A DNA stretch of 37,313 bases from a virus. Shown in pieces: positions 1,606-21,953 of this stretch (position 1 is its first letter; each line of letters begins with the position of its first letter). Location of the stretch: positions 1-37,313 of IMG/VR virus record IMGVR_UViG_3300023242_000756; one strand, written 5' to 3'. Below the pieces are notes generated by a model. That model did not search any database and was not told the origin of the DNA. It saw only the letters and a list, made by a program, of their open reading frames with translations. The position numbers were made by a program, and so were the translations under genes.

Positions 1606-3354
1606 TTGGGTATTTTTAAAAAAGAACCGCAGCAGTTACAGGCTTCCGGCCGTAATTTACGCGCCTCCGCCCCAAAGAACACTACCAGCATTGCCCCGGG
1701 TGTCTCAGTTGACTCTTTTGGTATCATTTATGCTGAACCACGCGCATTCAACGCACCTAGACCAATAACCGCCGCTGCTGCTCAAGTAAAGCTAGATGAT
1801 AAAACTGAAGCAGAGTACTTTAAAGCTCGTAGGAACTCCGCCGCTACCTCTTGGCAGGGTGAAGCATGGGAGTACTACGACGCAATTGGTGAGATTAAAT
1901 ATGCCTTCAACCTAGTTGCGTCTGTTGTTTCAAGAATTCGTCTATACGCAGCAGCTATAGGCAATCCGAGTGAAGCACCTTCTCCAATTATTTCAGTAGC
2001 TAAGATAGAGCCACGACTAGCACAAGCTGCTCAGCGTGCCCTCGACCGCTTGAGCTCTGCCTACGGTGGACAGCCTGGTCTTTTGAAAGACGCAGCGCTA
2101 AACTTGCAAGTTACTGGAGAGTGCTACCTAGTTCAGGTTCCAGAACGACTAGGGTCGGGCTACCCCGAGACCTGGGACATTAGATCAACCGATGAGCTAC
2201 AAGTTGATTCTAGGGGTAATTACATTCTTAACCCTCGCAGTGACCCAGCTGGCACCGGTGGTGTTGGGAAGGGTACTGGTGACATCATCCATCTACCAAA
2301 AACTTCATATGTTGGCCGCATTTGGCGAGCTCACCCTCGTTATAGTCAGGAATCTGACTCTTCCCTAAGAGGTCTGCTAGACCTCTGCGCTGAATTGCTA
2401 CTATTGAACAGGACATTCCGTGCGACTGCAAGATCTCGCCTTAACGCTGGCGCTCTCTACTTACCTGACGGCCTATCGGTTGCTTCGACTCCGGATCCAG
2501 ACTACCCGTACGATGAAGACGGTAATTACAACGAGCAATATAACCCCGAAGAGGCCGCAGACGACTTCGAAGATCAACTAATCGATGCAATGACCACCCC
2601 GATTAAGGACGAAGACTCCGCGTCTGCAGTTGTGCCCTTAATTATCCGTGGTCCAGCAGAGCTTGGCGACAAGATCAAGCAGTTTAAGTTTGAACGTTCC
2701 TTCGACCCAGCTCTTGGAGAGCGCTCCGACCGTGTACTAGAGCGTATCATGCAGGGCCTAGACGTCCCCAAAGACATCGTGACGGGACTTGCCAACGTTA
2801 AATACTCTAACGCTCTACAAATCGATGAGAGTCTATATAAGGCTCACATAGAGCCTCTGATGCTACTAATCGTTGACGCACTAACTGTTATGTACCTGCG
2901 TCCATACCTAATTGCCAACGGTTACTCCGAGGCAGAAGTTAAAGATGTCTGCATTTGGTATGATCCTAGCCTAGTGTCTACCAGAAACGACCGCGCTACA
3001 GACGCGGACTCTGGATTTGACAAGATGGCAGTATCATTTGACACCTGGCGTCGCGCACATGGGTTCTCCGCGGCAGACGCACCGGACGCTAAAGAGCTTG
3101 CACTTCGTTTAGTGATGCAAAAGGGCATGGTCACACCTGAACTTACCGAGGCGATGCTACAGTCGGTGGCTCCAGAGATGATGGGTGCACTCAGGCAGCA
3201 GACCATGGAAAATAATGGTGCTGCTATTCCCCCAGAGATTGATGAGCTTTTGACCCCAGCGGGTACTGGTGCTCCGTCAACTACAGAAGATGTTGCTGAA
3301 GAATCAACGCAAGAAGAAACAACACCGCCACCACTAGCAGAGCCAGAGGCTTAA
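1606..3354 (+). CDS. Portal protein
   Basis: The portal forms the ring at one head vertex through which DNA enters and leaves and to which the tail attaches. The 582-residue length is normal for siphovirus portals. The N-terminal third has the WEYYDAIGEIKYAFNLVA pattern (about residues 86-103) typical of actinophage portals; the middle carries the clip/stem part, including PKDIVTGLANVKYSNALQIDE near 388-408; the C terminus is a Pro/Glu/Thr-rich tail. I chose the TTG at 1606 because AGGAAG at 1594-1599 lies six bases upstream and no ATG is better placed. It sits after the terminase and ahead of the Dps-like gene, ending one base before the latter starts. Confidence 0.9.
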   Translation: MGIFKKEPQQLQASGRNLRASAPKNTTSIAPGVSVDSFGIIYAEPRAFNAPRPITAAAAQVKLDDKTEAEYFKARRNSAATSWQGEAWEYYDAIGEIKYAFNLVASVVSRIRLYAAAIGNPSEAPSPIISVAKIEPRLAQAAQRALDRLSSAYGGQPGLLKDAALNLQVTGECYLVQVPERLGSGYPETWDIRSTDELQVDSRGNYILNPRSDPAGTGGVGKGTGDIIHLPKTSYVGRIWRAHPRYSQESDSSLRGLLDLCAELLLLNRTFRATARSRLNAGALYLPDGLSVASTPDPDYPYDEDGNYNEQYNPEEAADDFEDQLIDAMTTPIKDEDSASAVVPLIIRGPAELGDKIKQFKFERSFDPALGERSDRVLERIMQGLDVPKDIVTGLANVKYSNALQIDESLYKAHIEPLMLLIVDALTVMYLRPYLIANGYSEAEVKDVCIWYDPSLVSTRNDRATDADSGFDKMAVSFDTWRRAHGFSAADAPDAKELALRLVMQKGMVTPELTEAMLQSVAPEMMGALRQQTMENNGAAIPPEIDELLTPAGTGAPSTTEDVAEESTQEETTPPPLAEPEA

Positions 3355-3355
3355 C

Positions 3356-3814
3356 ATGCATATTGATCAAAAACCAGAACTAGTTGCAAGATTGGCAAAA
3401 TTACTGGCTAATACAGTCACGGCTAAATTTATCCTCCACGGCTATCACTGGAACGTCTTAGGCCCAGACTTTGGTGAGTATCATAAATTCTTTAAGACTC
3501 TATATAAGGATGTAGACGGCTCAATAGACGAGTTGGGCGAAAATATTCTTAAAGCTGGATTCCCTGCGCCATATCTTCTAAGTGACTATATAGAGATGTC
3601 CTCTATCAAAGAAGAGCGCTTAGATGGAACTTCTCCCGTTTTCTTGCTTCAGTCTGCTAAAAGAGTTAATGATGAATTAGTTCACTCTCTATTCGACGCA
3701 TTTAAGATGGCAGAAGAGTGCAATGAGCAAGGACTAATGGATTTTCTTGCAGGCCGTATTGATACACATAAAACATTCAACTGGCAGATCAATGCATTCC
3801 TAGGAGTTCGCTAA
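3356..3814 (+). CDS. Dps/ferritin-like protein
   Basis: This 152-residue all-helical protein matches the Dps family (mini-ferritins that form 12-mers, oxidise iron with peroxide and shield DNA). HGYHWNVLGPDFGEYHKFF is the family signature, followed by DELGENI. Ferroxidase positions align with Listeria Dps numbering without gaps: H31, H43, D58 and E62 are present, but the usual D47 is K47. There is no long Lys/Arg-rich N-terminal DNA-binding tail. It lies between portal and head-maturation genes, with one base to the portal stop and its own stop directly abutting the next ATG, so it belongs to the head operon. Whether it is packaged in the virion, handles iron or peroxide in the host, or has been reused structurally is not decided by sequence. 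Confidence 0.85.
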   Translation: MHIDQKPELVARLAKLLANTVTAKFILHGYHWNVLGPDFGEYHKFFKTLYKDVDGSIDELGENILKAGFPAPYLLSDYIEMSSIKEERLDGTSPVFLLQSAKRVNDELVHSLFDAFKMAEECNEQGLMDFLAGRIDTHKTFNWQINAFLGVR

Positions 3815-4598: not shown

Positions 4599-7487
4599 AT
4601 GTCCGACTCCCTTAAGTCAATAATTGCAGTGGGTGGAAACTCTAGTGCTTCAAAAAGCCTGAGGGCCAGGAAGCAGCCTCGTGATAAAAAAGGCCGTTGG
4701 GTAACAACAGGCGCAGCCATGTTTGCAAGCGTCTCACTCAGTAATGGCAAAATATTAAAAGTAAAAGGTAAAGCTGTTGGAGGCACTGCAACTAAAAAGG
4801 GTGAAAAAAATGATATTCGCATGCTCGTTGACAAGGGCTACGGAGCTTCGGGAATTCCAGAAAATACGGTACTTGAAGTAGACTCTAAAAATGGTGAGCT
4901 AGAGTCCAAGATTCAGATAAATCGTGACTTCTTGAAGAAGAAGGGTATTGACCCCGATCTGCAGCATGACCTTCCTAAGTCAATAGCTGATATGCCTCAG
5001 AAGCTAGAGAACATGAACGCTCAGCCGGGCGATGAGCTAGATATTGAACTTGCCACCAATGGACTGACTGATGAGGAAGATAAAGAATTCCGCGCAGAGC
5101 GCGACAAGGAGCCTCTAGCAAAACTTCCACCAGCACTTGCAGAGCAAGCTGTTGAAGGCGAAGACGTTAACAAACTTCTAGACGAAGCGGGCAAGGCAGA
5201 CTCTCCTTTTATTGATCTCATACCAAAGTCTGCACTCGAGGTCATAAAGCTACGTGACGCGGGTCTTATAGACTCTACAGGAGGCATTCAACCTGGTGCC
5301 AGGTTTGTACCAGGAACACGGATGTATGGCGGGACGTGGGACACTAATGACTATTGGTATAACCCAGATGGAAGTGTTGTTAGGATTCGCAATGAGAAGG
5401 TAGGTAGCAAATCTACACTTCCTACCGGGGTGATTGATCCTGATATGTTACGCGACATGTGGACCCCAGCTGACGTAAAAAACCGAAACCCCGCTAAAGT
5501 CGCAGACAATGCAATTGCAAATATTATGGCTGAAGTCAGTCTGCATGGAGATACCGAGGTAAAATTCGAGGCTCTGGACGAGCTGTTTAGTGAAAAAAGC
5601 AGCCTCAAGCCAACGGCTCCTATGAATCTAAATGTTGGAGACGTAGTTCGCTCGAAGGCAGGTAAAGATTCCGTCATTGTTGACTTGAAATTGGATCCCA
5701 GCAGTGGCGGTAGATCATTCATGAAACTACAGAATGAGGATGGCACCGTAGCAGAGGTTCCTATAGATCTGACCAGGAAACTTAACGTTGTGCAAGGCAG
5801 AAAAGCTACTATCTCTGAACCAACTGAACCAACTGAACCAACTGAACCAACTGAACCAACTGAACCAACTGAACCAACCGCGAAAGCTAAGCCCGCTAAG
5901 CCCGCTAAGCCCGTTCCAAAAACGGTAAATGATACCAGAGAGTTGCCTACTACTAAAGAAGAGCCACCTCTACTTCCGCCAACTAATACTACAGAAGGCC
6001 CGCCTAAAGATAGGATCGACGACGGCGGCGACATTGTGCACAGTCCTATAACTGATGAAGAGCGCACCGAGGCAATTAGAAAAAAGATACCTGCCTTCAT
6101 AACTAAAATGGGACGCATACTAGAATACTTTGACAATAACGGAAAGAGGAAGCAAGCTTCCGACCCGTTTGAGCTACTGAACTCGCTAGCCGAAGCGTAT
6201 CCAAACGCTAAATTTACTCCCGAGGGCGACGCGCTAATTCTCGATCGCAGAATAGACAGCGACGGTAGGGTTTTTGAGCTCAGGGCATCTAATACTGGGT
6301 CTAAGGCCTTAGTCTACTCCATGAATTGGACTGACCCCGAGACTGGCAAAGTTGAAACTCTAATTCACTACGACAAGCGTCACTCTATAACATCAGTCTT
6401 TAGGAAAGACAACTCCTCGGATGGTCTGATGGCTAAACTACTCAGCGTTGAGCCATTGAAGCAGGGAAATGCTTCACCTATTCCTGGTTTCGGCGAGGCC
6501 TCTCTCAGAGAGCGTGCTGAGTGGTACAAGATGAAGCAGAAAATGTTTACCCCAGAAGGTCTTGCAACTTTCTATGGCAATGGCCGTCCAAAGATTTTCC
6601 ACAAAGACAAGGGCACATTCAAGCACCGAGACGTACTTAGTATTTGGGAAGCTTACCCTGAGTACAAGGACGATCCTAGCGACCCTGAGCTGAAAGACGC
6701 CATATATCACGGTCTACTTGGAGTATTTGGAAGATTGCCTATTGACCCACGTGTCCACAGGGAAGCTAGAAGGCAATTAAGATTAGAGTTTAGAAAGCGT
6801 TTCCCTAAAGAAAACGCTCGCAAGATGGGTGCACTAATTACTAATGCCTCTAGGATGTCTATGGGCAAAACATACGATCTAGACCCCGATACTAAAGCTA
6901 ACCCTTATGCATCAAAGAACCGTGTCACCCCTATCGAGCCGGGTCAGATTGTGGAGTACACAAACAACAAGGAAGAGCTAATAAACCTTGTAGTTACTGG
7001 CTACGCACCAAACGTCAACGTTAGCCCGGGCAATGAAGGCTACGATTACAACGACTTTATATACCTAAAAGATGCCGATGGAAAAACTGTACGTCTTAAC
7101 GCCATACAGTTGAGGATACTAAAAAACCAGGACACCCCCTTAACTAAATATAGTCCAAATATTGAAGGTAAAGAGCTACGGGATCATCGAGCAAAACTTG
7201 GATTCTATGACGATTCATCCACCGACAGACCTAATAACCCAACAGGTGTTGACACGTTTGCTGGAGAGCCCGACGCCCCGTTACCAGGTGTTATAGATGA
7301 TCTAGAGCCTGGAGACGTGCTTCCTAACCTAAATGGTGAAGGCATTCTTGGGGAGATTATATCCTCTAGGTTTGTTAGAGGCAAAGATGACGAAGAAGGA
7401 ATTGCGTTTACGGTAGTAACTGATAGCGGTGAGACTAAAATCGTAGTGTATGCTCTTGGTAAAGAGATACCACCAAAAAAAGACTAG
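4599..7487 (+). CDS. Large head-associated protein (962 residues), upstream half of a predicted frameshift fusion
   Basis: This very long protein sits where actinophages carry MuF-like or polyprotein head components. The N terminus (residues 24-120) has QPRDKKGRWV followed by a beta-rich segment with AVGGTA; similar domains occur in actinophage virion-associated proteins. Three short segments look like SH3/KOW-type barrels: LNVGDVV (about 344-400), IEPGQIVEY (about 783-845) and LEPGDVL (about 905-958). A disordered hinge at 407-445 consists of seven EPT repeats, then AKPAKPAKP. A basic helical region, EARRQLRLEFRKRFPKENAR, lies near 725-745. AAGGA at 4586-4590 precedes the ATG. The stop at 7485-7487 comes one codon after a perfect -1 slippery heptamer, so I expect some ribosomes to continue into the next ORF. 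No enzymatic motif is visible in this half. Confidence 0.8.
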   Translation: MSDSLKSIIAVGGNSSASKSLRARKQPRDKKGRWVTTGAAMFASVSLSNGKILKVKGKAVGGTATKKGEKNDIRMLVDKGYGASGIPENTVLEVDSKNGELESKIQINRDFLKKKGIDPDLQHDLPKSIADMPQKLENMNAQPGDELDIELATNGLTDEEDKEFRAERDKEPLAKLPPALAEQAVEGEDVNKLLDEAGKADSPFIDLIPKSALEVIKLRDAGLIDSTGGIQPGARFVPGTRMYGGTWDTNDYWYNPDGSVVRIRNEKVGSKSTLPTGVIDPDMLRDMWTPADVKNRNPAKVADNAIANIMAEVSLHGDTEVKFEALDELFSEKSSLKPTAPMNLNVGDVVRSKAGKDSVIVDLKLDPSSGGRSFMKLQNEDGTVAEVPIDLTRKLNVVQGRKATISEPTEPTEPTEPTEPTEPTEPTAKAKPAKPAKPVPKTVNDTRELPTTKEEPPLLPPTNTTEGPPKDRIDDGGDIVHSPITDEERTEAIRKKIPAFITKMGRILEYFDNNGKRKQASDPFELLNSLAEAYPNAKFTPEGDALILDRRIDSDGRVFELRASNTGSKALVYSMNWTDPETGKVETLIHYDKRHSITSVFRKDNSSDGLMAKLLSVEPLKQGNASPIPGFGEASLRERAEWYKMKQKMFTPEGLATFYGNGRPKIFHKDKGTFKHRDVLSIWEAYPEYKDDPSDPELKDAIYHGLLGVFGRLPIDPRVHREARRQLRLEFRKRFPKENARKMGALITNASRMSMGKTYDLDPDTKANPYASKNRVTPIEPGQIVEYTNNKEELINLVVTGYAPNVNVSPGNEGYDYNDFIYLKDADGKTVRLNAIQLRILKNQDTPLTKYSPNIEGKELRDHRAKLGFYDDSSTDRPNNPTGVDTFAGEPDAPLPGVIDDLEPGDVLPNLNGEGILGEIISSRFVRGKDDEEGIAFTVVTDSGETKIVVYALGKEIPPKKD
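5817..5879 (+). repeat. Seven tandem 9-base repeats encoding Glu-Pro-Thr
   Basis: GAACCAACT is repeated six times exactly, then once as GAACCAACC, giving seven EPT triplets (residues 407-427 of the 962-residue ORF). Near-identical units at DNA level suggest recent expansion by slippage; the product is a stiff, disordered hinge between two parts of the protein. Confidence 0.95.
5886..5912 (+). repeat. Three tandem 9-base repeats encoding Ala-Lys-Pro
   Basis: GCTAAGCCC occurs three times in a row and in frame, extending the EPT hinge with a basic AKP segment. The switch from an acidic to a basic proline-rich repeat within 30 residues is unusual. Confidence 0.9.
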
Positions 7488-7504
7488 CCCCCGATCAGGG
7501 GGGC
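7475..7504 (+). promoter_or_regulatory. Predicted -1 programmed ribosomal frameshift signal
   Basis: Seven A residues at 7475-7481 form the heptamer A AAA AAA in the correct phase of the 962-residue ORF (zero-frame codons CCA AAA AAA GAC TAG). After a 5-base spacer, GCCCCC (7487-7492) can pair with GGGGGC (7499-7504) around a 6-base loop; CTA at 7484-7486 and TAG at 7507-7509 can add three pairs past a two-base bulge. This is the usual arrangement of a -1 frameshift stimulator. The -1 frame is open from 7463 to 9478. There is no U-tract after the hairpin, so it does not look like a terminator. Confidence 0.78.
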
Positions 7505-7603
7505 GGTAGCCCAGAAGGGACTAACGATGGATCAGGACCAGGAGCCGAAAGTGACCCAGGGGGATCGGGACCAGATGGCAAAAGTCTACCCTCAGGAGAG
7601 GGA
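7481..7603 (+). other. Frameshift-accessed Gly/Pro/Asp/Ser-rich linker
   Basis: Read in the -1 frame, this stretch encodes about 41 residues with no stop, beginning RLAPDQGGGSPEGTNDGSG and continuing in the same style up to the GTG at 7604. Such a flexible, low-complexity linker between two folded halves is what a fusion protein would need, whereas a non-coding gap or a 5' leader would not be expected to give it. The stretch joins the downstream ORF without interruption. Confidence 0.72.
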
Positions 7604-9481
7604 GTGGACGGACGCGGAAATCGAGATGGCAAAAGCCCTTGGTCATCTCTAGATAGTCAACTACCCGAGGCAACTCGCGCTCAAGAGTTACGTGACTCTG
7701 GCTCATCTACTCCGGATTTATTTGAACTAGACCCTCAAAAAGACGCTGAGGCATTCCGAGACGCAATTCAGAAGCTAAAAGAGAGCAATAAATACTCAGC
7801 ATCTGTCTATGTTTACGATGTCGAAGAGTATCGTAACATGCGACTTTTCTCAACCGAAGATGGTACTGCTGGTATTGCACTGAAACCAGATGGCGACATT
7901 GTCTCCGGGTTTGTCTACGCTGACTCCCCACATAAAAGAGCCATCTCATCTATGCTGTCTCAAATGGTCGAGCTTGGCGGCGATCGTTTGGATGCTTTTG
8001 ACACGGTACTACCAGGGATATACGCTAATTCTGGGTTCAAGCCAGTAGCCAGAGTTCGTTGGGACAATGAGTTCGCACCAGATGGCTGGGATAAAGAAAC
8101 CTACAGTAAATTTAATAATGGTGAACCAGATGTAGTAATTATGGCGTATGACTCAGATCGTGTCGGATCTGAGTACGACCCTACAGAAGGAGAAGTCTTT
8201 GATGACTATGATGCAGCCATGGAGGCCCGCAATACAGAGCTAGAGGAACTAAAAAAAGAAAAAGAGCCGGATCTTTCTCCTGACAATGAGTACGCTGATC
8301 CTGGCCCCGTCTCGAGAGAGCGTCCTTCTTTCGATGCAGGGATCTCTGACTTTGAGGTCGACGATAGCGAATTGGAGACCGGCGAAGAAGAGGACCTATC
8401 TTCCGCGGTGAAGCTTAAAAGGCTAATAGCCAATAACCCTGGCCTCTCTAGATTTATAAATCGTATGGCTAAGGCTCCTGTGCGAAACCCAGTAAAAACG
8501 CTGCAGAGCGCAAGAGACCTGAAGAAAGCACTTGCGGACCTTGACGTGTCTGACTTTGAGGTAGAGGGGTTCACTCCAAGCGTAAGTCACTCAGGAATGA
8601 GTCGCTCTGACATAAACTTAATTAGGGATAATCTTTCTGCTAATAATATAACCGTTTCCCCAGAAGAAGCAAGAGACCTGGCGGATATCCTCAACTACGT
8701 AATTAACTTTGAAGGTATGACCACCGAAGAAGCTGTTATAGCCGCACTAAAGAAAGACGGGATTAGATACTCTAACAAAAATAATATTGCCGTCAAATCT
8801 GTAGATCTCCCGATCATATTTGAAAACGAAGATTCTAAAGAGTTACCGGATCCTAAGACGGCTAGACTGGTTACCACTCCGAAAGAGACCAAAGATATTC
8901 TTGCTGCCATGGGCAAGATAAATGCTTTTTTTGAGAGTGAAGGATCGCTTCCGGGCACCTTAGATCCAAACGCTATCTCCATTAGAGTTGTGCCAAATCA
9001 AAATGCCTTCGACAACCTATACAACTTGTTAGACATAACAGAGACAGGTAGAATAAAATCTCGTGCTACCACTTTTGGTGCAAACATACCCAACCTTGTA
9101 GAGCTCCCAGTTGAAGAATACCTAGCCGGTAGAATTCCCCTAACCGACAACAGAGATCTGAGCAGCAACATCATACTAAACTTAAAGTTCCTCAGGGAGT
9201 ACGCAGATAAGACTAAATTTGAATCAGGTTCCAGAATTCAGGAAACATTAATCCACGAATTTGGCCACACTCTGCATCGATCCTTCGGCCTCAGTTGGGG
9301 TCGTAAGAAGACTGTCAGTAGTCTTGGCGAGTACTACAGCGTGTTCAAGCAATTTGTCTCGGATTACGGAACAACAAGCCCTAAAGAGCACTTTTCCGAC
9401 TCGTTTTCGCAGTACCTCCTAACCGGTGATTCTCCCCAGGGGTGGAAAGCATTCATGAAATCTCAGGGTATACTTAAATGA
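7604..9481 (+). CDS. GNAT-like domain plus HEXXH metallopeptidase domain; C-terminal half of predicted frameshift fusion
   Basis: From the GTG this is 625 residues, but the frame is open back to 7463 and most likely is entered by frameshift from the preceding ORF (fusion of 961 + 666 = 1627 residues). Residues about 15-190 resemble a GNAT-type acetyltransferase fold seen in phage head polyproteins, with LDAFDTVLPGIYANSGFKPV as the typical C-terminal GNAT strand-helix. A charged, helical middle follows. The C terminus carries HEFGHTLH (zinc ligands H551 and H555, catalytic E552) and a likely third ligand E595 in PKEHFSDSFSQYL, a gluzincin-like arrangement similar to phage-borne and toxin metallopeptidases. 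The GTG has AGGAG at 7594-7598, so separate initiation is possible, although the purine-rich Gly codons could mimic a binding site. Substrates are unknown: prohead maturation or an ejected effector are both open. Confidence 0.75.
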   Translation: MDGRGNRDGKSPWSSLDSQLPEATRAQELRDSGSSTPDLFELDPQKDAEAFRDAIQKLKESNKYSASVYVYDVEEYRNMRLFSTEDGTAGIALKPDGDIVSGFVYADSPHKRAISSMLSQMVELGGDRLDAFDTVLPGIYANSGFKPVARVRWDNEFAPDGWDKETYSKFNNGEPDVVIMAYDSDRVGSEYDPTEGEVFDDYDAAMEARNTELEELKKEKEPDLSPDNEYADPGPVSRERPSFDAGISDFEVDDSELETGEEEDLSSAVKLKRLIANNPGLSRFINRMAKAPVRNPVKTLQSARDLKKALADLDVSDFEVEGFTPSVSHSGMSRSDINLIRDNLSANNITVSPEEARDLADILNYVINFEGMTTEEAVIAALKKDGIRYSNKNNIAVKSVDLPIIFENEDSKELPDPKTARLVTTPKETKDILAAMGKINAFFESEGSLPGTLDPNAISIRVVPNQNAFDNLYNLLDITETGRIKSRATTFGANIPNLVELPVEEYLAGRIPLTDNRDLSSNIILNLKFLREYADKTKFESGSRIQETLIHEFGHTLHRSFGLSWGRKKTVSSLGEYYSVFKQFVSDYGTTSPKEHFSDSFSQYLLTGDSPQGWKAFMKSQGILK

Positions 9482-10125: not shown

Positions 10126-13100
10126 ATGATGAGCACTAATCGTATGTACACTATCCCTGGCGGCGTTCAGAATGAAGCTAAAAAGGCTTTAAACTGGCGC
10201 AAGGAGGCCAAGCGAGGTGGCACACCGGTAGGAATTAATAGCGCGCGTACTCTTTCAAAGGGTGGTCAAATTGGTATCGAAAAAATTCGTCACATTGCTA
10301 AATACTTTCCTCGTCATGAGGTTGACAAGAACGCAAAAGGCTATGAGCGCGGAGAAGATGGATTCCCATCTAACGGCCGTATTGCTTGGGCACTTTGGGG
10401 TGGGGACGCCGGGCAGAGATGGGCTTCTGCAATTGTAGAGCGTGAAAACAAAAGAGCCATCGCTGCAGGTGGATATGATCTATCTCATGGCGAATCCGAT
10501 TACAGAGAAACGCCCCACTATGAGCCTGACCTCAGTGCGTTTAAGCAAGCCCACGAATTAGACCTATTCCTTGGGCCAGAATTCATGGTTCGTATACGTC
10601 TAGACAATTCTGGTATAGATCGTCTATATAAAATTGATGTTGATGGAATGGTATCCGTCTGGGACGACTGCGGCTGGGACGACATGGGCCACGTTGATGG
10701 TGATGTTTATTCATACGACCGAGCTTTAGATGCTGATATTGAAACTTCCGAGTTCGACCATGTAATAATAGACCCCTCTGCTGCGGTAATTATTTCAGCC
10801 TTTCTACAGGCTAGACCTAATCAGCCGGTTAGATTAGATGAGATAGACCCAGAAGAAACCAGGCTTGTAGCCGATGGTCTTATGGAAGAAGACTTTGTAA
10901 TGATCGACAGGGTTATTACTGCTGCCGGGACCACAGATTCCCCTACAGATAAAGACGGTGACTTTACTCCTGAAGAAAGATCTAATCTAGCCAAAACTCA
11001 GCCGAGAGACGCTAGTGGGCTTTTTGTTAAGGTCGGCTCGCGAACTGTTGTTGGCGGAGACACAGAGCGAGGTTCTGGAGTAATTACCGGGATTGATTAC
11101 GCGATGGGAAAAGTTAAGGTAAAACTTGACAGCGGAAAAGATATTTCCGTGGACTCTAAATTCACGCAAGGTGAAGACTCCGTTGAGGGGCCGATGCCAG
11201 TTCCAAAAAACATCGCTCCCTTAGACCTCAGCGGTATCGTTGCCGAGCCCAGGACCCCAAGAAACTCTCCAATTGCTCGTCTACCCGGGACACTGCCAGT
11301 TTTGAGTGATAAAGATATTAATTCCATTATTAATGATTTTCCATCATATGTAGCAAAAATGCGTAAGTCTTATAAAACTTATGATGACAAGCCTAAGGGT
11401 TTAAAGGCATATGACAAGAAATTAGTTAAAGAACGTCACGGTATAAACGCCGCCGCCACTGGTGACGTAGATCAGATTAACGACCCGTCGGAATCGGACG
11501 TCACTGCTAAATACTTAGCGATCGTGTCTCCTGACGACAAGGGTGCGGTAATGGATTTGATTGCAATTGTTCCTGCAGCAACAAGCTCTACGCAGCCGGA
11601 AATATACGAGCGCAAAGAGGGCAAGTGGCAGAGAAGTGAACAGCTTCTAATGGACTTAAAATCATCAACACCACCTCCCGTAGTCGAGCTTGATGATAAA
11701 AAAGTTCTAGACGATGTACTTAAGCAAGCTGACGAGGCTTCACCTATGCAGGCATCCGCATACGAATTCTCCATTTTCTGGGAAAGAGTAGTGGAGCCGT
11801 TGCTCTCAGCTGGTGGTGCTGACCGTAACCGTGGTAATGCAGATGCACTTCGTCGCTACTGGACTAAGGGCAAGGGCGCAGCAAAAATCCGTTGGAACAC
11901 TCCCGGTGATTGGACTCGCTGTGTTCGCCAGCTCTCTAAATACATGGGCCCACGCGCGAAGGGCTACTGCCAACTTCGCCACAAGGAAGTAACTGGTGTC
12001 TACACTGGAAGCGAAAAAAATGTTGGAAAGAGAAAGGGCTTAAAAGCTTCTACTTCTCTATTTGCAACTGAGAAAGAATTTGATTCAGCAGTCTTTGAAA
12101 AGTCTCGTCTAGCAGCAATAGCATCCGATGCGCGTGAAAAGGTTGCTCTAATCGCTGATGCTTCCTATGGTAAGTCCGGGGCTGAATTCTACATACCTCT
12201 GATTGTGCCTGAAGAAGCCGAATCTGGTGATGGTAGAAAATTTAAAAAAGGCTCGATAAGCGTACGTGACTTACCGATCCCGCTTCTTTGGCAGATTAAA
12301 ACTGGTGCAGGTCACGATGGATCCGTAGTTGTAGGTCGAATTGACTACGTTGAAAGGATTGAGGGAGGTGTTGGAAACGCTCGTGGTGTTTTTGATTCCG
12401 GCCCTTACGGTCGCGAGGCAGAGAGATTAGTTAGATATGGTTTCTTGCGTGGAGTCTCCGTGGATTTAGATCAATTTGAGGCACAAGAAAACAAGAGCCC
12501 AAAGACTGAAAACTCTGAAGATGGCGAAGTTATGGGCAAGGATAAATTGACCATAAACAAGGCCCGTATTATGGCTGCTACAATTGTAGCTAAGCCTGCA
12601 TTTCAGGAGTGCAGCATATCATTGCAAGAACAAGGGGAGCAGGAGTACGAAGTGACCCCTAAAGATGGCATATATGAAGAATGCATTGACGGTTTTTGCG
12701 ACCTTGAACCAATCATGGCTTCTGGGTACCTGGAATCCGAGATTCCAATGGCACCACCTGCCCAATGGTTTGCTGACCAGAAACTTCTCAAGCCAACGCC
12801 ACTAACTATAGATAAAGACGGTCGTGTCTACGGACACATAGCCGCGTGGCACATTAGCCACATTGGACTGCCACGCTCAACTAAGCCTCCTCGATCTCGT
12901 AGCAAGTACGCATACTTCAACACTGGAGTAGTCAATACTGCCGAGGGCACTGATGTCACCGTTGGTCAACTAACCCTTGCTGGTGGCCATGCTCCACTAA
13001 ATGCGGACGCTTCATCTGCTGCCAGACATTACGACGACACCGCCTCAGCTATTGCAGATGTGCACGCTGGCGAGGATCAGTTTGGTATTTGGGTATCTGG

Positions 13101-14490
13101 CTGCTTGCGTCCAGACGCTGATGAAATGCAGATACGAGCACTTCGCGCCTCAGCACCTTCTGGGGACTGGCGTCCAATTAATGGGTCCTTAGAACTGGTT
13201 GCTGTTTGTCAAGTTAACGTTCCTGGATTCCCTACTGCACGTGCAATGATTGCATCCGGCAAAATATTCGCGCTTGTTGCCGCTGGAGCTAGCCATATGG
13301 CAGTACTAAAAAGCCAAGCAGTTCAGACGTTATCTCAGAAAGCAAACACTCTAGGTCAGCTCGCCGCTACTGCTCCAGACCTAAAGATGAGAGTAAGAGC
13401 TGCCAAGAAATCTCTTCGCGAGGCCAATCTAGAGGCAATAACCGCTAGCGCTACCCTGATGAAGGAAAAATCACTAATTGCTGCTGCAATATCAGAGCTG
13501 GCTAAGATCCCAAGTGATCTAAGGATGGAGTTAGCAGAAAAGGGCTACGCCATGAAAGATGGCTCTTACCCCATTCGTGACACTTCTGATTTACAAAACT
13601 CCATTAAAGCGTACGGAAGAGCAAAAGACTCTGAGAAATCCGCAGTGCGTAAGCACATAACCAAGCGTGCTCGTCAATTAAAGGGATTTAGTATGATTCC
13701 TCAGGAATGGGCTTATGCAAACTCTACGGAAGCAGCCGACAAGGTTGACTTAATGCGTAGATCAATCACTGCCGCAGCAAATTCTGATTGTGGTTGCGAC
13801 TTACCTGTTGAAACAGTGGTGGCTGCTGTCCCGAAAGATGAAATCTCTGAAACTGAGCTAAAGAAGCTAAAAGACGCAAAGTCTGAAGCCGACAAGCAAA
13901 CCGAAGAAGAGATTGAAGCAGCTAAAGCAGTCAAATCTGGTAAGGCGGACATTGAGGATCTAGATGAGGACGGTAAGCCTAAATACGTTTCTGGTGTAAA
14001 CCAGCCACGTGACGCAAAAGGTAAGTACCGCACAGTTCTAGCTCGCCTAAAACAGAACTTAGGTGTTGCAGGTCTGGCAAAAGCATTGAAAAAAGCTGAA
14101 GATGCTGAAAACCTAGACTTTGCTGGTGACTATCGGGCTTCTGCGGACGCAAGCGGCGAGCTGATCGGCATGATCGACCGAATTGACTCAAAAGCTTTAA
14201 ATCCAGAAGCTCTAGAGAATGTTCGCGCAACCGCCGCAGAGCTAGGCACTGTGATTTCCAACCTACCTCTCCCTTTTGGCAAGGATGCAGAGAAATTAAA
14301 GTTTAGCGATCTACCGTCTGGACTAAAGGATTTAATCAAGAAAATGATTACCCGAGTCGAGGCAAAAATCGGTAAAGAGGATGCAAATATTGCTACGCAA
14401 AGTTTGAAATCCTTCATGTCGGGTGCAGATCTGTACTCTCAGGGTGAAGTTCAATCTGAGATGAGCAAGTTGCTCCGACTCCTTACCTAA
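10126..14490 (+). CDS. Capsid maturation (prohead) protease polyprotein, 1454 residues
   Basis: Several actinophage head domains are joined here. Residues 8-115 (IPGGVQNEAKKAL, HIAKYFPRHEVD, GFPSNGRIAWALWGGD) form one conserved block. QPRDASGLF at 292 leads into a small KOW-like barrel. Residues 546-625 (RRYWTKGKGAAKIRW, KYMGPRAKGYC) form another block. The protease domain, about 690-855, resembles S78/HK97 prohead proteases, with candidate catalytic H730 in GHDGSVVV and S778 in LRGVSVDL. Residues 895-1065 (GHIAAWHISHIGLP, PPRSRSKYAYF) and a DUF6582-like block at 1141-1200 (YAMKDGSYPIRD) follow, then a second QPRDAKGKY at 1293 and a helical C terminus. Translation may begin at the second ATG (10129), six bases after CGGAG. 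The protease presumably cuts itself, scaffold and capsid N termini during maturation. Confidence 0.85.
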   Translation: MMSTNRMYTIPGGVQNEAKKALNWRKEAKRGGTPVGINSARTLSKGGQIGIEKIRHIAKYFPRHEVDKNAKGYERGEDGFPSNGRIAWALWGGDAGQRWASAIVERENKRAIAAGGYDLSHGESDYRETPHYEPDLSAFKQAHELDLFLGPEFMVRIRLDNSGIDRLYKIDVDGMVSVWDDCGWDDMGHVDGDVYSYDRALDADIETSEFDHVIIDPSAAVIISAFLQARPNQPVRLDEIDPEETRLVADGLMEEDFVMIDRVITAAGTTDSPTDKDGDFTPEERSNLAKTQPRDASGLFVKVGSRTVVGGDTERGSGVITGIDYAMGKVKVKLDSGKDISVDSKFTQGEDSVEGPMPVPKNIAPLDLSGIVAEPRTPRNSPIARLPGTLPVLSDKDINSIINDFPSYVAKMRKSYKTYDDKPKGLKAYDKKLVKERHGINAAATGDVDQINDPSESDVTAKYLAIVSPDDKGAVMDLIAIVPAATSSTQPEIYERKEGKWQRSEQLLMDLKSSTPPPVVELDDKKVLDDVLKQADEASPMQASAYEFSIFWERVVEPLLSAGGADRNRGNADALRRYWTKGKGAAKIRWNTPGDWTRCVRQLSKYMGPRAKGYCQLRHKEVTGVYTGSEKNVGKRKGLKASTSLFATEKEFDSAVFEKSRLAAIASDAREKVALIADASYGKSGAEFYIPLIVPEEAESGDGRKFKKGSISVRDLPIPLLWQIKTGAGHDGSVVVGRIDYVERIEGGVGNARGVFDSGPYGREAERLVRYGFLRGVSVDLDQFEAQENKSPKTENSEDGEVMGKDKLTINKARIMAATIVAKPAFQECSISLQEQGEQEYEVTPKDGIYEECIDGFCDLEPIMASGYLESEIPMAPPAQWFADQKLLKPTPLTIDKDGRVYGHIAAWHISHIGLPRSTKPPRSRSKYAYFNTGVVNTAEGTDVTVGQLTLAGGHAPLNADASSAARHYDDTASAIADVHAGEDQFGIWVSGCLRPDADEMQIRALRASAPSGDWRPINGSLELVAVCQVNVPGFPTARAMIASGKIFALVAAGASHMAVLKSQAVQTLSQKANTLGQLAATAPDLKMRVRAAKKSLREANLEAITASATLMKEKSLIAAAISELAKIPSDLRMELAEKGYAMKDGSYPIRDTSDLQNSIKAYGRAKDSEKSAVRKHITKRARQLKGFSMIPQEWAYANSTEAADKVDLMRRSITAAANSDCGCDLPVETVVAAVPKDEISETELKKLKDAKSEADKQTEEEIEAAKAVKSGKADIEDLDEDGKPKYVSGVNQPRDAKGKYRTVLARLKQNLGVAGLAKALKKAEDAENLDFAGDYRASADASGELIGMIDRIDSKALNPEALENVRATAAELGTVISNLPLPFGKDAEKLKFSDLPSGLKDLIKKMITRVEAKIGKEDANIATQSLKSFMSGADLYSQGEVQSEMSKLLRLLT

Positions 14491-14505: not shown

Positions 14506-14606
14506 TATCCCTAGGTGGAGCGCCTTTCGTTTTTACGCAGAGTCCCTCGGCCTTGACTGTAATCAAGGATGCTAGACATCCAAAAATAACTGGCCTAGGA
14601 GGTACA

Positions 14607-16754
14607 GTGTACGACCAGATAAAGACTCAGCTAGATGCAATTTCTGAGCTTGGTGACGAACAAGTCGCAGAGCTACAAGCAGACATCATCTCGCAGTTTG
14701 AAATGGTTGAGGGTGAAGACCCGACTCCTGAGACAGTTGATGCTATGACGTTACTAGCTGACTCTCTAGACATGGTACGCGGAGAACTATCAAACCGCGA
14801 AGCTCAGACTGCAGAACTTGCAGCCCGTGCTGCTGAAGCTACTGCCCGTGTCAAGGGTGGAGCAGAGGACGTCGGAGAGGAAATGGCCATGACCGAAGAT
14901 GAGCCTATGGTAGAGGAAGCCCCTATGGAAGAAACTCCAGAAGAGGTAACCCCTGAGACCGAGGTAGAGGCAGAGGAAATGCCAGCCGAAGAAGAGGAAA
15001 AGGAAGAGGAAGAAGAAGAGATGTCAATTAAGGCATCCGCTTCTGACGAGACCTCCCTCGAGGCTGCAGGAGACGCCGTTGTCGAAGAGACTACAACCGA
15101 AACTGAACTTTCTACCGAAGAGGTAGCAGAAGTTGTAGTTGAAGAAGCTGTCGCAGAGACTTCAGTCGAGACTGAGGCTGCCATCGAAGAAATCACTGAA
15201 GCTACAACCGATACCGAAGCAGAGTTCTCTGCTGAGGGAGAAGTTGTTACCGAAGAGGTTATCGAGGTTGTCGAGGACGCCACAATCGAAGCATCAACTA
15301 ATCAGGTAGACGGTTCTGAACTATCAACCCCAACCGAAGAATCCGCCGAACTATCTACAGAGGAGACTGCAGAAGCAGTTGCCGAAGTGGTAGAAGAAGC
15401 AGAGCTTTCGTCAGAAGAAATTATTGAAACATCAACAGCTCTCGTAGAAGAGCAGAAGGAGCAGGCAGTGACCGCTGCAGCTGAACAGCCTTTCGAGGCC
15501 CCAGCCGACCGTCAACCAGTAGTTCGGGTAACAGAGGCTCCAGTGGCAATCACTGCTGGCGCTGACATTCCTGGATACACCGCGGGAAGCACTATTAATA
15601 GCATGTCTGATGTTGCTCAGGCCATGGAAAAGAGACTTCACTCTCTTCGCCGTGTAAACGGTGGCGACGGAGAGCAGCACATTGTTGCATCTTTCACCAC
15701 ACAGTACGCAGAAGACCGCATATTGTCCTCAGACCCTCTAGAGAACGCTGCAAAGATTGAGGCTGTAACTTCCTCAGAAGCACTTATTGCTTCTGGTGGA
15801 CACGCTGCCCCAGCCGAAGTCCGCTATGAGGTCTACAGCATTGGTGGCACCACCGCACGTCCAGTTCGTGACGCACTTCCTGCGTTCCAGGCTGACCGTG
15901 GTGGCGTTCGCTTCGTAACTCCTCCAATCCTGTCTGCTCACGCAGATGCTGTTGGTGTATGGACTGCTGCTACTGACGCTACCCCAGGTGGCGCAACAAA
16001 AGCTAGCCTTACCGTTGTTGCTGCTGGAGAAAACGTAGTATCAACTGACGCTGTAACTCTACAGATGCAGTTCGGTAACCTAATGACTCGCGCGTACCCA
16101 GAGTTGATCGCTCGTCACAACGAGCTTGGTCTAACTCAGCACGCACGCGAGGCAGAGGTTAACTTGCTGTCCGCTATTGGTGCAGCATCAACCTCTATCA
16201 CTACCACCTCACTAATCGGCTTTGGTCGCGACTTCCTAGTCCAGATCCGCCGTGCAGCAGCTGGTTACCGTAGCCGTCACCGCCTATCGCCAGACGCTCG
16301 CCTAAAGGCAATCGTCCCAGCTTGGGTGTATGACGCAATGTCCGCTGACTTGACTCTGTCAATGCCAGGCGACGGAACCCTAGGTGTCGGCCAGTCCGAG
16401 ATCAACGGTTACCTAGCCGGTGCAAACGTCGACCTAATTGCATCTCTTGATGCAGGCGCTTTTGGCGCACAGGCTACGGGCGTTATGACCGAGTTCGCAG
16501 ACAGCTTCGACTGGTACCTATTCGCCGAAGGAACATTCTTGTTCCTAGACGGAGGTACCCTGGACCTCGGAATCATCCGCGACTCCAGCCTGGTCGGCAC
16601 CAACGACTACAAGATGTTCGTTGAGACCTTCGAGAACGTTGCCAAGGTTGGCATCGAATCTCTAAAGGTAACTTCAACCATCTCGGTCAACGGTGTAGCC
16701 GCTGCCCTACGCGACACCACTGGTGGCGCTGCTGCAGCTGCAATCGAGCTCTAA
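14607..16754 (+). CDS. Major capsid protein with fused acidic scaffold-like region
   Basis: I place the start at GTG 14607 because AGGAGG (14597-14602) lies four bases upstream; the in-frame TTG at 14553 has no binding site. The product is then 715 residues. Residues 1-75 are helical (LGDEQVAELQADIISQFE) like the N-terminal delta/scaffold part of actinophage capsid proteins. About 80-300 is an extreme Glu/Thr/Val/Ala-rich acidic insert with imperfect repeats (EETTTETELSTEEVAE). The HK97-fold shell domain begins around 330 and includes QIRRAAAGYRSRHRLSPDARL and FDWYLFAEGTFLFLDGG. The acidic part probably serves as internal scaffold removed by the protease encoded just upstream; that processing is inference. 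A strong hairpin terminator follows the stop. Confidence 0.9.
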   Translation: MYDQIKTQLDAISELGDEQVAELQADIISQFEMVEGEDPTPETVDAMTLLADSLDMVRGELSNREAQTAELAARAAEATARVKGGAEDVGEEMAMTEDEPMVEEAPMEETPEEVTPETEVEAEEMPAEEEEKEEEEEEMSIKASASDETSLEAAGDAVVEETTTETELSTEEVAEVVVEEAVAETSVETEAAIEEITEATTDTEAEFSAEGEVVTEEVIEVVEDATIEASTNQVDGSELSTPTEESAELSTEETAEAVAEVVEEAELSSEEIIETSTALVEEQKEQAVTAAAEQPFEAPADRQPVVRVTEAPVAITAGADIPGYTAGSTINSMSDVAQAMEKRLHSLRRVNGGDGEQHIVASFTTQYAEDRILSSDPLENAAKIEAVTSSEALIASGGHAAPAEVRYEVYSIGGTTARPVRDALPAFQADRGGVRFVTPPILSAHADAVGVWTAATDATPGGATKASLTVVAAGENVVSTDAVTLQMQFGNLMTRAYPELIARHNELGLTQHAREAEVNLLSAIGAASTSITTTSLIGFGRDFLVQIRRAAAGYRSRHRLSPDARLKAIVPAWVYDAMSADLTLSMPGDGTLGVGQSEINGYLAGANVDLIASLDAGAFGAQATGVMTEFADSFDWYLFAEGTFLFLDGGTLDLGIIRDSSLVGTNDYKMFVETFENVAKVGIESLKVTSTISVNGVAAALRDTTGGAAAAAIEL

Positions 16755-21222: not shown

Positions 21223-21558
21223 ATGGCTGAAATGAAAGATTTTGGTAGCGATTTTGTAGGAGAAAAAGAATCCCCCAAGTTTAAGTTGCATGGGGAAGAG
21301 TTTGAGTGCGTTAAAGCTATTCAAGGAAAAGTTCTTCTAAACCTAACAGCTAAAGTAGCAAGCGAGGATCCCGCAGAGCAAGCAGCGATGATTACTGGAT
21401 TCTTTAAGGATGTTCTTATTTCAGAGAGCTATGAACGCTTTGATGCCTTGCTCGATAGCAAGGATAAAATTGTAACCGTAGAGGCTCTTGGAGAGATTGT
21501 TGGCTGGATAACTGGTCAGTTGACAGCACGCCCGGAAGAGCAGCCAAAGGTCTCCTAA
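21223..21558 (+). CDS. Tail assembly chaperone (short form, gpG-like)
   Basis: This 111-residue protein lies directly upstream of the tape measure gene with a second ORF in the -1 frame, the standard position of the lambda gpG/gpGT chaperone pair that coats the tape measure during tail assembly. FKLHGEEFECVKAIQGKVLLNL near residues 19-40 is the beta-rich N-terminal fold common in these proteins; the C terminus (YERFDALLDSKDKIVTVEALGEIVGWI) is helical. Near its end the zero-frame codons CAG CCA AAG GTC allow a -1 slip. Sequence conservation is low in this family, so the call depends mainly on context. Confidence 0.8.
   Translation: MAEMKDFGSDFVGEKESPKFKLHGEEFECVKAIQGKVLLNLTAKVASEDPAEQAAMITGFFKDVLISESYERFDALLDSKDKIVTVEALGEIVGWITGQLTARPEEQPKVS
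21543..21549 (+). promoter_or_regulatory. Probable -1 frameshift site of the tail chaperone pair
   Basis: G CCA AAG is in the right phase (codons CCA AAG). AAG can re-pair perfectly as AAA; CCA to GCC is an imperfect P-site slip, so it is a weaker heptamer than the canonical CCC AAA form. The -1 frame is open across the short-form stop and reads GLLTWAVDLWHYVNGKAL directly into the next ORF. The exact slip codon is not certain. Confidence 0.6.
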
Positions 21559-21605
21559 CCTGGGCAGTAGATCTTTGGCACTACGTAAATGGAAAAGCCC
21601 TAACA

Positions 21606-21953
21606 ATGAAAATAGACCTCAAGGAAATGAACGGAGAAGATATGTGCGACGTTTTGCACTACTTCTTTGAAGAGGATACCCACTACCAAAGTGGGGAAGA
21701 GGCCGAATCTGTGTCTAAGATGCGCACTGGGCTTTATGAATTGTATGGAATGCCATACAACTATGCAGTAGATAGCTCTGGTTCTAGTGCCGGCTCTGGT
21801 GGTCGTCAGTATATTAATGATCACGAAGATCTAGGCTTCCAGGACCCGGCTACAACAAAGTACATAAGCAAAGGCTTCACCCCTGCAACTGACGTTAAGG
21901 GTGAATCACTAGCACCATTTGGTGCACTACTAGACCCCCCTATCGGTGGATAA
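21606..21953 (+). CDS. Tail assembly chaperone C-terminal extension (gpT-like), made by frameshift
   Basis: The ATG-to-stop part is 115 residues, but its frame runs back through 21549 as GLLTWAVDLWHYVNGKALT, a sequence typical of the second half of actinophage tail chaperones. So the biological product is the fusion of 109 + 134 = 243 residues, made by -1 frameshift from the preceding ORF; the internal ATG has no strong binding site. The part after the ATG has GEDMCDVLHYFFEEDTHY and a Gly/Ser-rich loop (SSGSSAGSGG). It helps load the tape measure and recruit tail tube subunits. It ends 16 bases before the tape measure start. Confidence 0.78.
   Translation: MKIDLKEMNGEDMCDVLHYFFEEDTHYQSGEEAESVSKMRTGLYELYGMPYNYAVDSSGSSAGSGGRQYINDHEDLGFQDPATTKYISKGFTPATDVKGESLAPFGALLDPPIGG

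Follow-up and report, generated by a model that had tools for sequence, protein, structure and literature searches.

A conserved candidate -1 frameshift signal at the end of a probable phage head-protein gene would append predicted GNAT-fold and zincin domains

Introduction

In retroviruses, the Gag/Gag-Pol frameshift, also mentioned in PMC5009743, attaches enzymes to a limited share of the copies of a particle protein. In the G/G-T tail chaperone of phage lambda, ribosomes slip by -1 on a heptamer close to where the first ORF ends, which gives a minor joined product. The coat genes of T3, T7, A2, A118 and PSA also frameshift, and the extensions named in the available text are Ig-like or, in T7, not Ig-like, with no enzyme named among them (PMC5009743). 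Polyvalent proteins are large and multidomain, carry GNAT and lethal-factor-like zincin domains and are thought to be injected (PMC5512222), and the MuF/VIP2 fusions of Microbacterium phages are single genes (PMC7302621). Such pairs may use frameshifting according to PRFect, the available text of which gives neither a signal nor conservation of a frameshifted case (PMC10885494).

The initial annotation of the DNA described here knew of no frameshift appending an enzymatic domain to a head-associated protein outside the tail chaperones. The restriction to chaperones does not hold, since frameshifted capsid proteins, those of T3, T7, A2, A118 and PSA, are already known (PMC5009743). In searches of open PMC papers, among them the available parts of PMC5009743, PMC10885494, PMC7302621, PMC5512222 and PMC10202952, no frameshift was found by which a tailed-phage head protein gains an enzyme.

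Shift site and gene order

The window is the complete stretch of 37,313 nucleotides of IMG/VR record IMGVR_UViG_3300023242_000756, and the features of the gene pair 4599-9481 described below lie on its + strand. An ORF of 962 codons (4599-7487) ends with CCA AAA AAA GAC TAG, where the run 7475-7481 has exactly seven A by direct reading. These seven bases form the slippery heptamer A_AAA_AAA, in phase with the codons AAA (7476-7478) and AAA (7479-7481), and a single sense codon, GAC (7482-7484), separates it from the stop TAG (7485-7487) that ends the 962-residue short product. A spacer of 5 nt (7482-7486) leads to a candidate stimulatory hairpin of six G-C pairs (7487-7504), with arms GCCCCC (7487-7492) and GGGGGC (7499-7504). 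The -1 frame is open from stop to stop over 7463-9481, and the extension (7481-9481) has 666 codons and a stop. The heptamer, spacer, stem and 666-codon frame of the initial annotation all match this direct reading, and its figure of 1627 residues for the fusion is borne out (961 + 666).

The 962-codon ORF lies between the portal gene (1606-3354) and the head-protease and major head genes, and from this order its product is probably located in or on the phage head. The major head protein is encoded at 14553-16754 (phrog_777, E 5e-72), and a tail chaperone candidate with its own -1 overlap (21223-21953) precedes the tape measure gene (21970-24735). Two known arrangements were considered for the pair 4599-9481 and rejected: a tail assembly chaperone, as the pair follows the portal gene and is not just upstream of the tape measure gene, and a T7 gp10-type extension of the major capsid protein, as the major head gene is a separate ORF.

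The 962-residue protein has a conserved N-domain (4599-5153) with a QPRDKKGRW motif. It has no match in Pfam, PHROG or NCBIfam, and an N-terminal MuF domain, as in MuF polymorphic toxins, may or may not be present. It has no relative among named phages at E 1e-5; two scans of genome contigs found no relative, and hence no host genome was reached. Its AF2 model is of low confidence (pLDDT 61). Ribosomal proteins and SH3/Tudor-like barrels make up most of the Foldseek matches listed, at E >0.02, and these matches are a hint only. They suggest small beta-barrel-like segments in the modelled protein, the last of them just 5' of the shift site.

Conservation of the signal

The family has 36 members, the window included, and is known from metagenomes. 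Contig ends cut 13 of them, and counts of the signal cover the 23 members that reach their own stop. An in-phase heptamer at the stop, followed by a long -1 ORF, is present in 15 of these 23 loci and absent from eight; the 15 amount to about 12 distinct loci once three pairs with near-identical extensions are collapsed, and their contigs come from several metagenomes. Two heptamers are used. Class A (L001, L005, L007, L103 and L105) has A_AAA_AAA as in the window, and class B (L107, L108, L111-L113, L116, L117, L120, L128 and L132) has C_CCA_AAA; the classes comprise five and ten loci. As background, 128 other + strand ORFs of at least 150 codons stop to stop were taken from 13 loci, some of them mutually homologous or non-coding. 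An in-phase X_XXY_YYZ heptamer (Y = A or T) ending at most 6 nt from the stop occurs in none of the 128. In nine the -1 frame stays open over 200 codons or more, never together with a heptamer.

A stimulatory structure a few nucleotides downstream of the heptamer is predicted in both classes. By folding energy, the 24-nt hairpin segment of the window ranks in the lowest 0.1% among 1800 sliding windows of the same locus, and the 24-nt segments of class A and 50-nt segments of class B fall in the lowest 0.1-0.5% of same-locus windows (12 loci, both classes), with spacers of 5 nt in class A and 4-6 nt in class B. Against dinucleotide shuffles of the 70 nt downstream, z is only -1.08 in the window and is weak in class A (-0.25 to -1.08) and in L107/L108 (-0.83). 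L001 and L005 have a strong local 24-nt stem, yet their best 70-nt fold pairs differently and lacks the local hairpin. The base of the class B hairpin, GGGCUG/CAGCCC, is invariant, and its upper helix varies in sequence between members yet still pairs. When seven class B sequences are folded together, four of 11 pairs have changed on both sides, six never vary and the five upper pairs fail to form or fall in a gap in 1-3 of the seven; the RNAalifold covariation term is small (0.16). The comparison of homologues proposed with the initial annotation finds the heptamer and frame relation kept in 15 of 23 loci, and hairpins are predicted for both heptamer classes.

Enzyme domains of the extension

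The first domain of the extension (7655-8278) has a GNAT fold, which is confirmed on an AF2 model (pLDDT 94.1, pTM 0.90); its acetyl-CoA-dependent activity is putative. The best Foldseek match has E 3.3e-3, and the titles of the 50 matches listed by VIA-align are acetyltransferases, CoA-bound kin or NatA-type complexes, with Z of 9.5-10.8. The sequence profile of this domain alone found no GNAT chain in the PDB. Relatives of the domain occur at 196 viral loci, of which the best 80 were kept. The extension has five partial matches among named phages; in Microbacterium phages Caron, Barnstormer and UtzChips, which of the named phages come closest to the GNAT domain, the protein is annotated as 'minor capsid protein'.

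The second domain (8708-9478) is a zincin metallopeptidase domain with HEFGH at 9254-9268 and a conserved Glu at about 9386. The residues of the HExxH motif and the distant Glu (H183, E184, H187 and E227) are invariant in 12 of 12 aligned sequences, and the profile matches lethal-factor zincin domains in the PDB (E 8e-5), while the Pfam ATLF match is below the ATLF cut-off. Both domains of the extension that had been read from the sequence by itself are upheld by these results. HExxH is found in 14 of 16 extensions examined; it is missing from L001 and L005, the extensions of which have no peptidase, so the appended activity is not constant.

Single-frame relatives and module exchange

In five of the eight frameshift-free loci, the upstream protein and a zinc peptidase are encoded in one frame. 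L114, L121 and L124 each have one ORF of about 1210 residues, which aligns to the upstream protein of the window through residue 960 and then to the peptidase of the extension, and L122 and L123 encode the same protein as L121. L126, L129 and L131 are single-frame with no match to the peptidase profile, each having HELWH near its C-terminus. The N-domain and GNAT domain are joined in L024 in one ORF of 3458 codons. Further domains in relatives are a UvrD helicase in L129 and a NUDIX domain in L024. Relatives in which both ORFs share a frame had been put forward as evidence against the fusion; they do exist, and we count L114, L121-L124 and L024 in its favour because they make the joined polypeptide a real product elsewhere. 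In the short in-frame stretches 5' of the GNAT domain in L054, L060, L061, L064 and L074 no comparable signal was seen (L058, which is like L061, was left out).

Class A, class B and single-frame members are interleaved in the N-domain tree, in which eight of 21 inner branches are well supported. Recombination within the gene is a likely cause, and for this reason no order of gain or loss is drawn.

Selection on the -1 frame and alternative readings

In class B, the -1 frame is under selection at the protein level ahead of any ordinary start codon, judging from substitution patterns. Over its first 90-100 codons, changes concentrate at third positions (for example, 3/0/25 for L112-L113 and 17/11/49 for L120-L128). 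Of the 44 substitutions in codons 3-36 of three pairs, 29 fall at the third position (p 1e-5), with few changes in codons 1-20. In the clade of the window, conservation of the -1 frame at 7527-7640 does not exceed that of simulations without constraint (score 67, simulated mean 69.9), so the coding evidence right after the site comes from class B. Here the first -1 codons are overlapped by a conserved 41-codon ORF in the 0 frame 3' of the TAG (7527-7652), which has an ATG and an AAGG-type ribosome site. Among all 191 loci searched it occurs only in the window and the contigs of L001, L005 and L007, and its 41-residue peptide has no match among named phages.

We consider one rival reading improbable: the extension may be a separate protein, started at the GTG at 7604-7606 in the -1 frame or by re-initiation after the 41-codon ORF, which could couple translation to it, and the heptamer and hairpin would then be incidental. 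An AGGAG lies 5 nt upstream of this GTG in the window and L007, the GTG is kept at the equivalent place in L001 and L005, and in the clade of the window the frame ahead of it is not separately selected. However, L001 and L005 have no AGGAG-like site there, and the GTG lies where the overlapping 0-frame ORF encodes a conserved Glu-Trp, which can account for the GTG being kept. The alignment of L024 continues in frame through the GTG codon. Of eight class B members scanned, seven have no ATG, GTG or TTG in their first 36 to 132 codons (in L117 the first comes at codon 106 and in L120 at codon 133), and the eighth, L128, has its GTG at codon 23. All eight nevertheless carry heptamer and hairpin, and the class B pairs show the -1 frame to be selected. 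We read the GTG at 7604 as an internal Val codon.

Slippage of RNA polymerase, instead of the ribosome, on the A7 homopolymer could join the same two frames, but seven A are short for bacterial polymerase slippage, the class B sites have only four A in the same geometry, and the position of the hairpin, 4-6 nt downstream, agrees with stimulation of the ribosome. Recoding by transcriptional slippage is known, as the available text of PMC5009743 describes, and we nevertheless hold it to be very unlikely here. A mutation or assembly error that broke an ordinary single-frame gene, to which the single-frame homologues of the joined protein could point, is scarcely credible, as the break is at the heptamer in 15 of 23 loci on contigs of several metagenomes and the class B -1 frame has its third-position bias.

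Proposed mechanism and significance

The comparison supports the initial proposal that a -1 frameshift extends the 962-residue protein by an acetyltransferase-like part and a metallopeptidase part, and we give a probability of about 0.89 to a conserved frameshift that would yield products of 962 and 1627 residues, the longer with the GNAT and zincin domains. Most ribosomes would end at the TAG (7485-7487) and make the 962-residue protein. A minority would pause at the hairpin (7487-7504) as their tRNAs read AAA AAA, slip one base back on A_AAA_AAA and continue in the -1 frame to 9478, which would give the 1627-residue form with the joint IPPKK-RLAPDQ, the GNAT-fold domain and the zincin peptidase. 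The rate of this slip would fix the number of enzyme-bearing copies relative to plain ones, in the Gag/Gag-Pol style; both forms would be present in the virion, and the enzymes may act on the protein that carries them or work inside the infected cell.

A wider reading, to which we give even odds, is that this tailed-phage family uses Gag-Pol-like frameshifting to limit how many of the head-protein copies it loads carry enzymes, that the shift cassette is a joint for recombinational exchange of modules (GNAT alone, GNAT with zincin, zincin with other domains), and that one clade encodes a third protein, of 41 residues, over the joint. The frameshift itself, if it takes place, would stand as a conserved example from dsDNA tailed phages in which slipping of the ribosome determines how much particle-attached enzyme is made, and it makes testable whether phages ration injected enzymes by the frameshift ratio, like retroviruses with Pol. 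For annotation, C_CCA_AAA or A_AAA_AAA at a stop with a hairpin would flag head genes otherwise called as two unrelated ORFs.

Comparison with known systems

Among the described systems, lambda G/G-T shares with the window the slip near the end of the first ORF and the minor joined product. The gene described here differs in lying between portal and head-protease genes, not ahead of the tape measure gene, in having enzyme folds in its extension, and in the presence of a separate chaperone candidate. T7/T3 gene 10 and the coats of Lactobacillus phage A2 and Listeria phages A118 and PSA are alike in that a head-region structural gene has a minor, C-terminally extended form, but those are coat or major tail genes in the available text (PMC5009743), while the window gene is distinct from the major head gene and has GNAT and zincin folds in its extension. 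MuF/VIP2 fusions likewise join a virion protein to an enzyme, and the window differs from those described in the accessible part of PMC7302621 by its frameshift signal. Polyvalent proteins also have several disparate enzymatic domains in one polypeptide, as do the window (GNAT and zincin), L129 (UvrD) and L024 (NUDIX); in the window a frameshift would mark off the enzyme part, and the word 'frameshift' is absent from the available text of PMC5512222. The likeness to Gag/Gag-Pol is that of enzymes placed on a particle protein, in this case of a dsDNA tailed phage, and is one of arrangement, with no homology claimed.

Candidate shift site and close relatives

The sequence at the joint of the two frames, read directly, is CCA AAA AAA GAC TAG (7473-7487), and it is followed by the hairpin arms GCCCCC (7487-7492) and GGGGGC (7499-7504), both as the initial annotation had given them. 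The 0-frame ORF of 962 residues (4599-7487), the open -1 frame (7463-9481) and the length of 1627 residues that a fused product would have also agree with that annotation. The layout at 7473-7504 is that of a standard -1 shift site.

L001, L005 and L007, three viral loci with close relatives of the gene pair, share with the window the run of seven A, the TAG, a pair of complementary arms and the -1 frame relation; L001 and L005 have one CCA codon less, which leaves the phase unaffected. Over the 1600 bases that precede the joint, identity between L001 and the window is 79-100%, against mostly 62-79% in the 800 that follow; between L001 and L005 it is 50-82% ahead of the joint and 82-100% past it. 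L001 is thus close to the window before the joint and to L005 after it, which indicates recombination near the shift site, and from these comparisons the extension appears to be a module that moves independently. The positions concerned are about 7461 in the window, 10826-11635 in L001 and 8374-9183 in L005.

Heptamers and hairpins in the wider family

A family of 36 rows, made up of the window and 35 loci with at least 49% identity, came from scans with the N-domain, the conserved N-terminal part of the 962-residue protein (4599-5153). Outside this count are L133, which is the contig of L024 (N-domain identity 33%), L191, which has a short match, and L134-L178, with 26-44% over parts of the N-domain. 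Contig ends cut 13 of the 36, 15 have a heptamer in phase and at the stop with a long -1 frame, and 8 do not. The extensions of L103/L105, L107/L108 and L128/L132 are identical or near-identical, so about 12 of the 15 heptamer loci are distinct. In ten of the 15, C_CCA_AAA directly before TAG or TAA (class B) replaces A_AAA_AAA (class A). Among 128 other ORFs from 13 of the family loci, not one has such a heptamer at its end.

At the length that fits each class (24 nt for A, 50 nt for B), the folding energy at 12 loci is among the lowest 0.1-0.5% for windows of equal length. Ranks at other lengths are ordinary in several loci (0.30 at 24 nt in L111, 0.09 at 50 nt in L005), shuffle z-scores of the 70-nt segments lie between -0.25 and -3.34, and the local stem is absent from the best 70-nt fold of L001 and L005. 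The predicted folds are therefore good evidence of structure in class B, fair evidence in the window and weaker evidence in L001, L005 and L103.

Evidence on translation of the -1 frame, and the overlapping ORF

Many pairs of class B extensions align from the first residues past the shift, and their substitutions over the first 90-100 codons are at third positions when read in the -1 frame. Three pairs have 29 of 44 substitutions at third positions in codons 3-36; codons 1-20 alone hold few changes, with 0/2, 2/2 and 4/7 at third positions. The first ATG, GTG or TTG of the -1 frame is found at codon 106 in L117 and 133 in L120, and elsewhere the first start-type codon is TTG 37 (L111, L112), TTG 58 (L113), ATG 58 (L116), TTG 109 (L108) or GTG 23 (L128). 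Ordinary independent initiation leaves the class B family unexplained. A similar test on 7527-7640 in the window's clade revealed no selection, with a -1 frame score of 67 versus an unconstrained mean of 69.9.

The -1 linker there is overlapped by a 41-codon ORF in the 0 frame after the TAG, from ATG 7527 to TAG 7650-7652, which has an SD-like AAGG or GAGG upstream; the ATG and the SD-like site are conserved. Among 191 loci, it is present only in the window and in contigs of L007 (identical), L005 (61%) and L001 (59%), and comparison of the window with L001 points to selection on its protein. Simulations with only the -1 frame constrained reached the observed 0-frame conservation in 0 of 2000 runs. 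When the constraint was placed on the 0 frame alone, the two strengths that came closest to the observed score (beta 0.2 and 0.3) gave 5-12% of runs with -1 conservation as high as observed and 9-14% with an open -1 frame. These outcomes suggest that the ORF is probably a small gene that overlaps a loosely constrained linker. The 0 frame after the stop closes within 3-19 codons in L103, L105, L111-L113, L117 and L120, and in L107, L108, L116, L128 and L132 it continues for 36-57 codons that do not clearly resemble the 41-codon ORF.

Single-frame homologues

L114, L121 and L124 each encode a homologue of the joined protein in one ORF of about 1210 residues, and the L121 protein recurs in L122 and L123. 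These proteins match the upstream protein of the window with 54-63% identity in the N-part and 27-31% onward to residue 960, and further on they match the peptidase of the extension (27-28%). L126, L129 and L131 are also single-frame, with HELWH close to the C-terminus and no profile match to the peptidase. The open frames of L129 (9977-17662) and L131 (1583-9370) have 2562 and 2596 codons, and the L129 protein has a UvrD-type helicase mid-way. In L024 a single 3458-codon ORF contains the N-domain (33%) together with the GNAT domain (53%), and its alignment runs over the -1 frame GTG codon of the window (7604-7606).

Domains of the extension

The AF2 model of 7655-8278 (pLDDT 94) matches solved GNAT structures with a best Foldseek E of 3.3e-3 and VIA Z of 9.5-10.8 across 117-148 residues; the sequence profile by itself retrieved no GNAT chain from the PDB. 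This domain is widespread, with 196 confirmed loci, and in 68 of the best 80 of these at least 200 in-frame residues are ahead of it; the remaining 12 include 3 contigs of the window's clade and 3 that run off the contig. Limnohabitans phage DC33 (L010, PQ492659.1; 39 kb), which encodes it in a 3125-residue protein, is filed under Inoviridae, a classification that looks doubtful.

The zincin domain, which lies in the C-terminal 257 residues of the extension, matches lethal-factor structures by profile (E 8e-5), and its HExxH and Glu are invariant in 12 frameshifted and single-frame members. Of 16 extensions, 14 contain HExxH, and the two that lack it are those of L001 and L005. The L007 extension exceeds that of the window by 229 residues, and L116 has a domain in common with the L024 contig.

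Gene neighbourhood

In the window, a virus record of 37,313 bases, PHROGs and Pfam assign a partial large terminase (1-933), a portal (1606-3354), a Dps/ferritin-like protein (3356-3814) between the portal gene and the gene pair, a major head protein (14553-16754) and, beyond it, genes for a head-tail adaptor, the tape measure and the tail. The ferritin/Dps-like gene, which comes immediately after that of the portal, also occurs in L001, L002, L004, L005 and L006. The position of its gene suggests that the 962-residue product is a head protein. The gene pair is followed by a 1454-residue protein (10126-14490), whose top PHROG is phrog_859, named portal protein, and whose next named PHROG is a head maturation protease (phrog_18402, E 5e-61); segments of it can be aligned with three genes that carry the annotation capsid maturation protease in lake phage DSL-LC01, the nearest named phage by portal (68%). 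At the equivalent position DSL-LC01 encodes a 3290-residue protein that matches the motif part of the N-domain alone (E 1e-6, profile positions 6-58), a match that is weak evidence because the motif recurs in other proteins.

A QPRDxxG motif is found in the N-domain (4674-4700), a related form occurs twice in the 1454-residue protein, and another was seen by eye ahead of the GNAT domain in L064. A Pro-Thr-Glu tripeptide repeat lies inside the 962-residue protein, at about 5820-5885. Immediately upstream of the tape measure gene is a likely tail assembly chaperone pair (21223-21953), in which a -1 frame that is open over 21468-21953 overlaps a 111-residue ORF; inspection by eye found no classic heptamer in this pair.

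Comparison with known systems

Coat and tail proteins with a frameshift are already described (PMC5009743), head-protein/enzyme fusions are described as single genes (PMC7302621; PMC5512222), and the authors of PRFect raise the possibility of frameshifting in VIP2 and MuF-like pairs, since fusions exist (PMC10885494). Searches of open papers on frameshifting turned up no description of a conserved shift by which tailed phages add enzymes to a protein of the head region. Relative to a standard -1 shift site, the unusual features here are its place, in the head region, and its cargo, which is enzymes.
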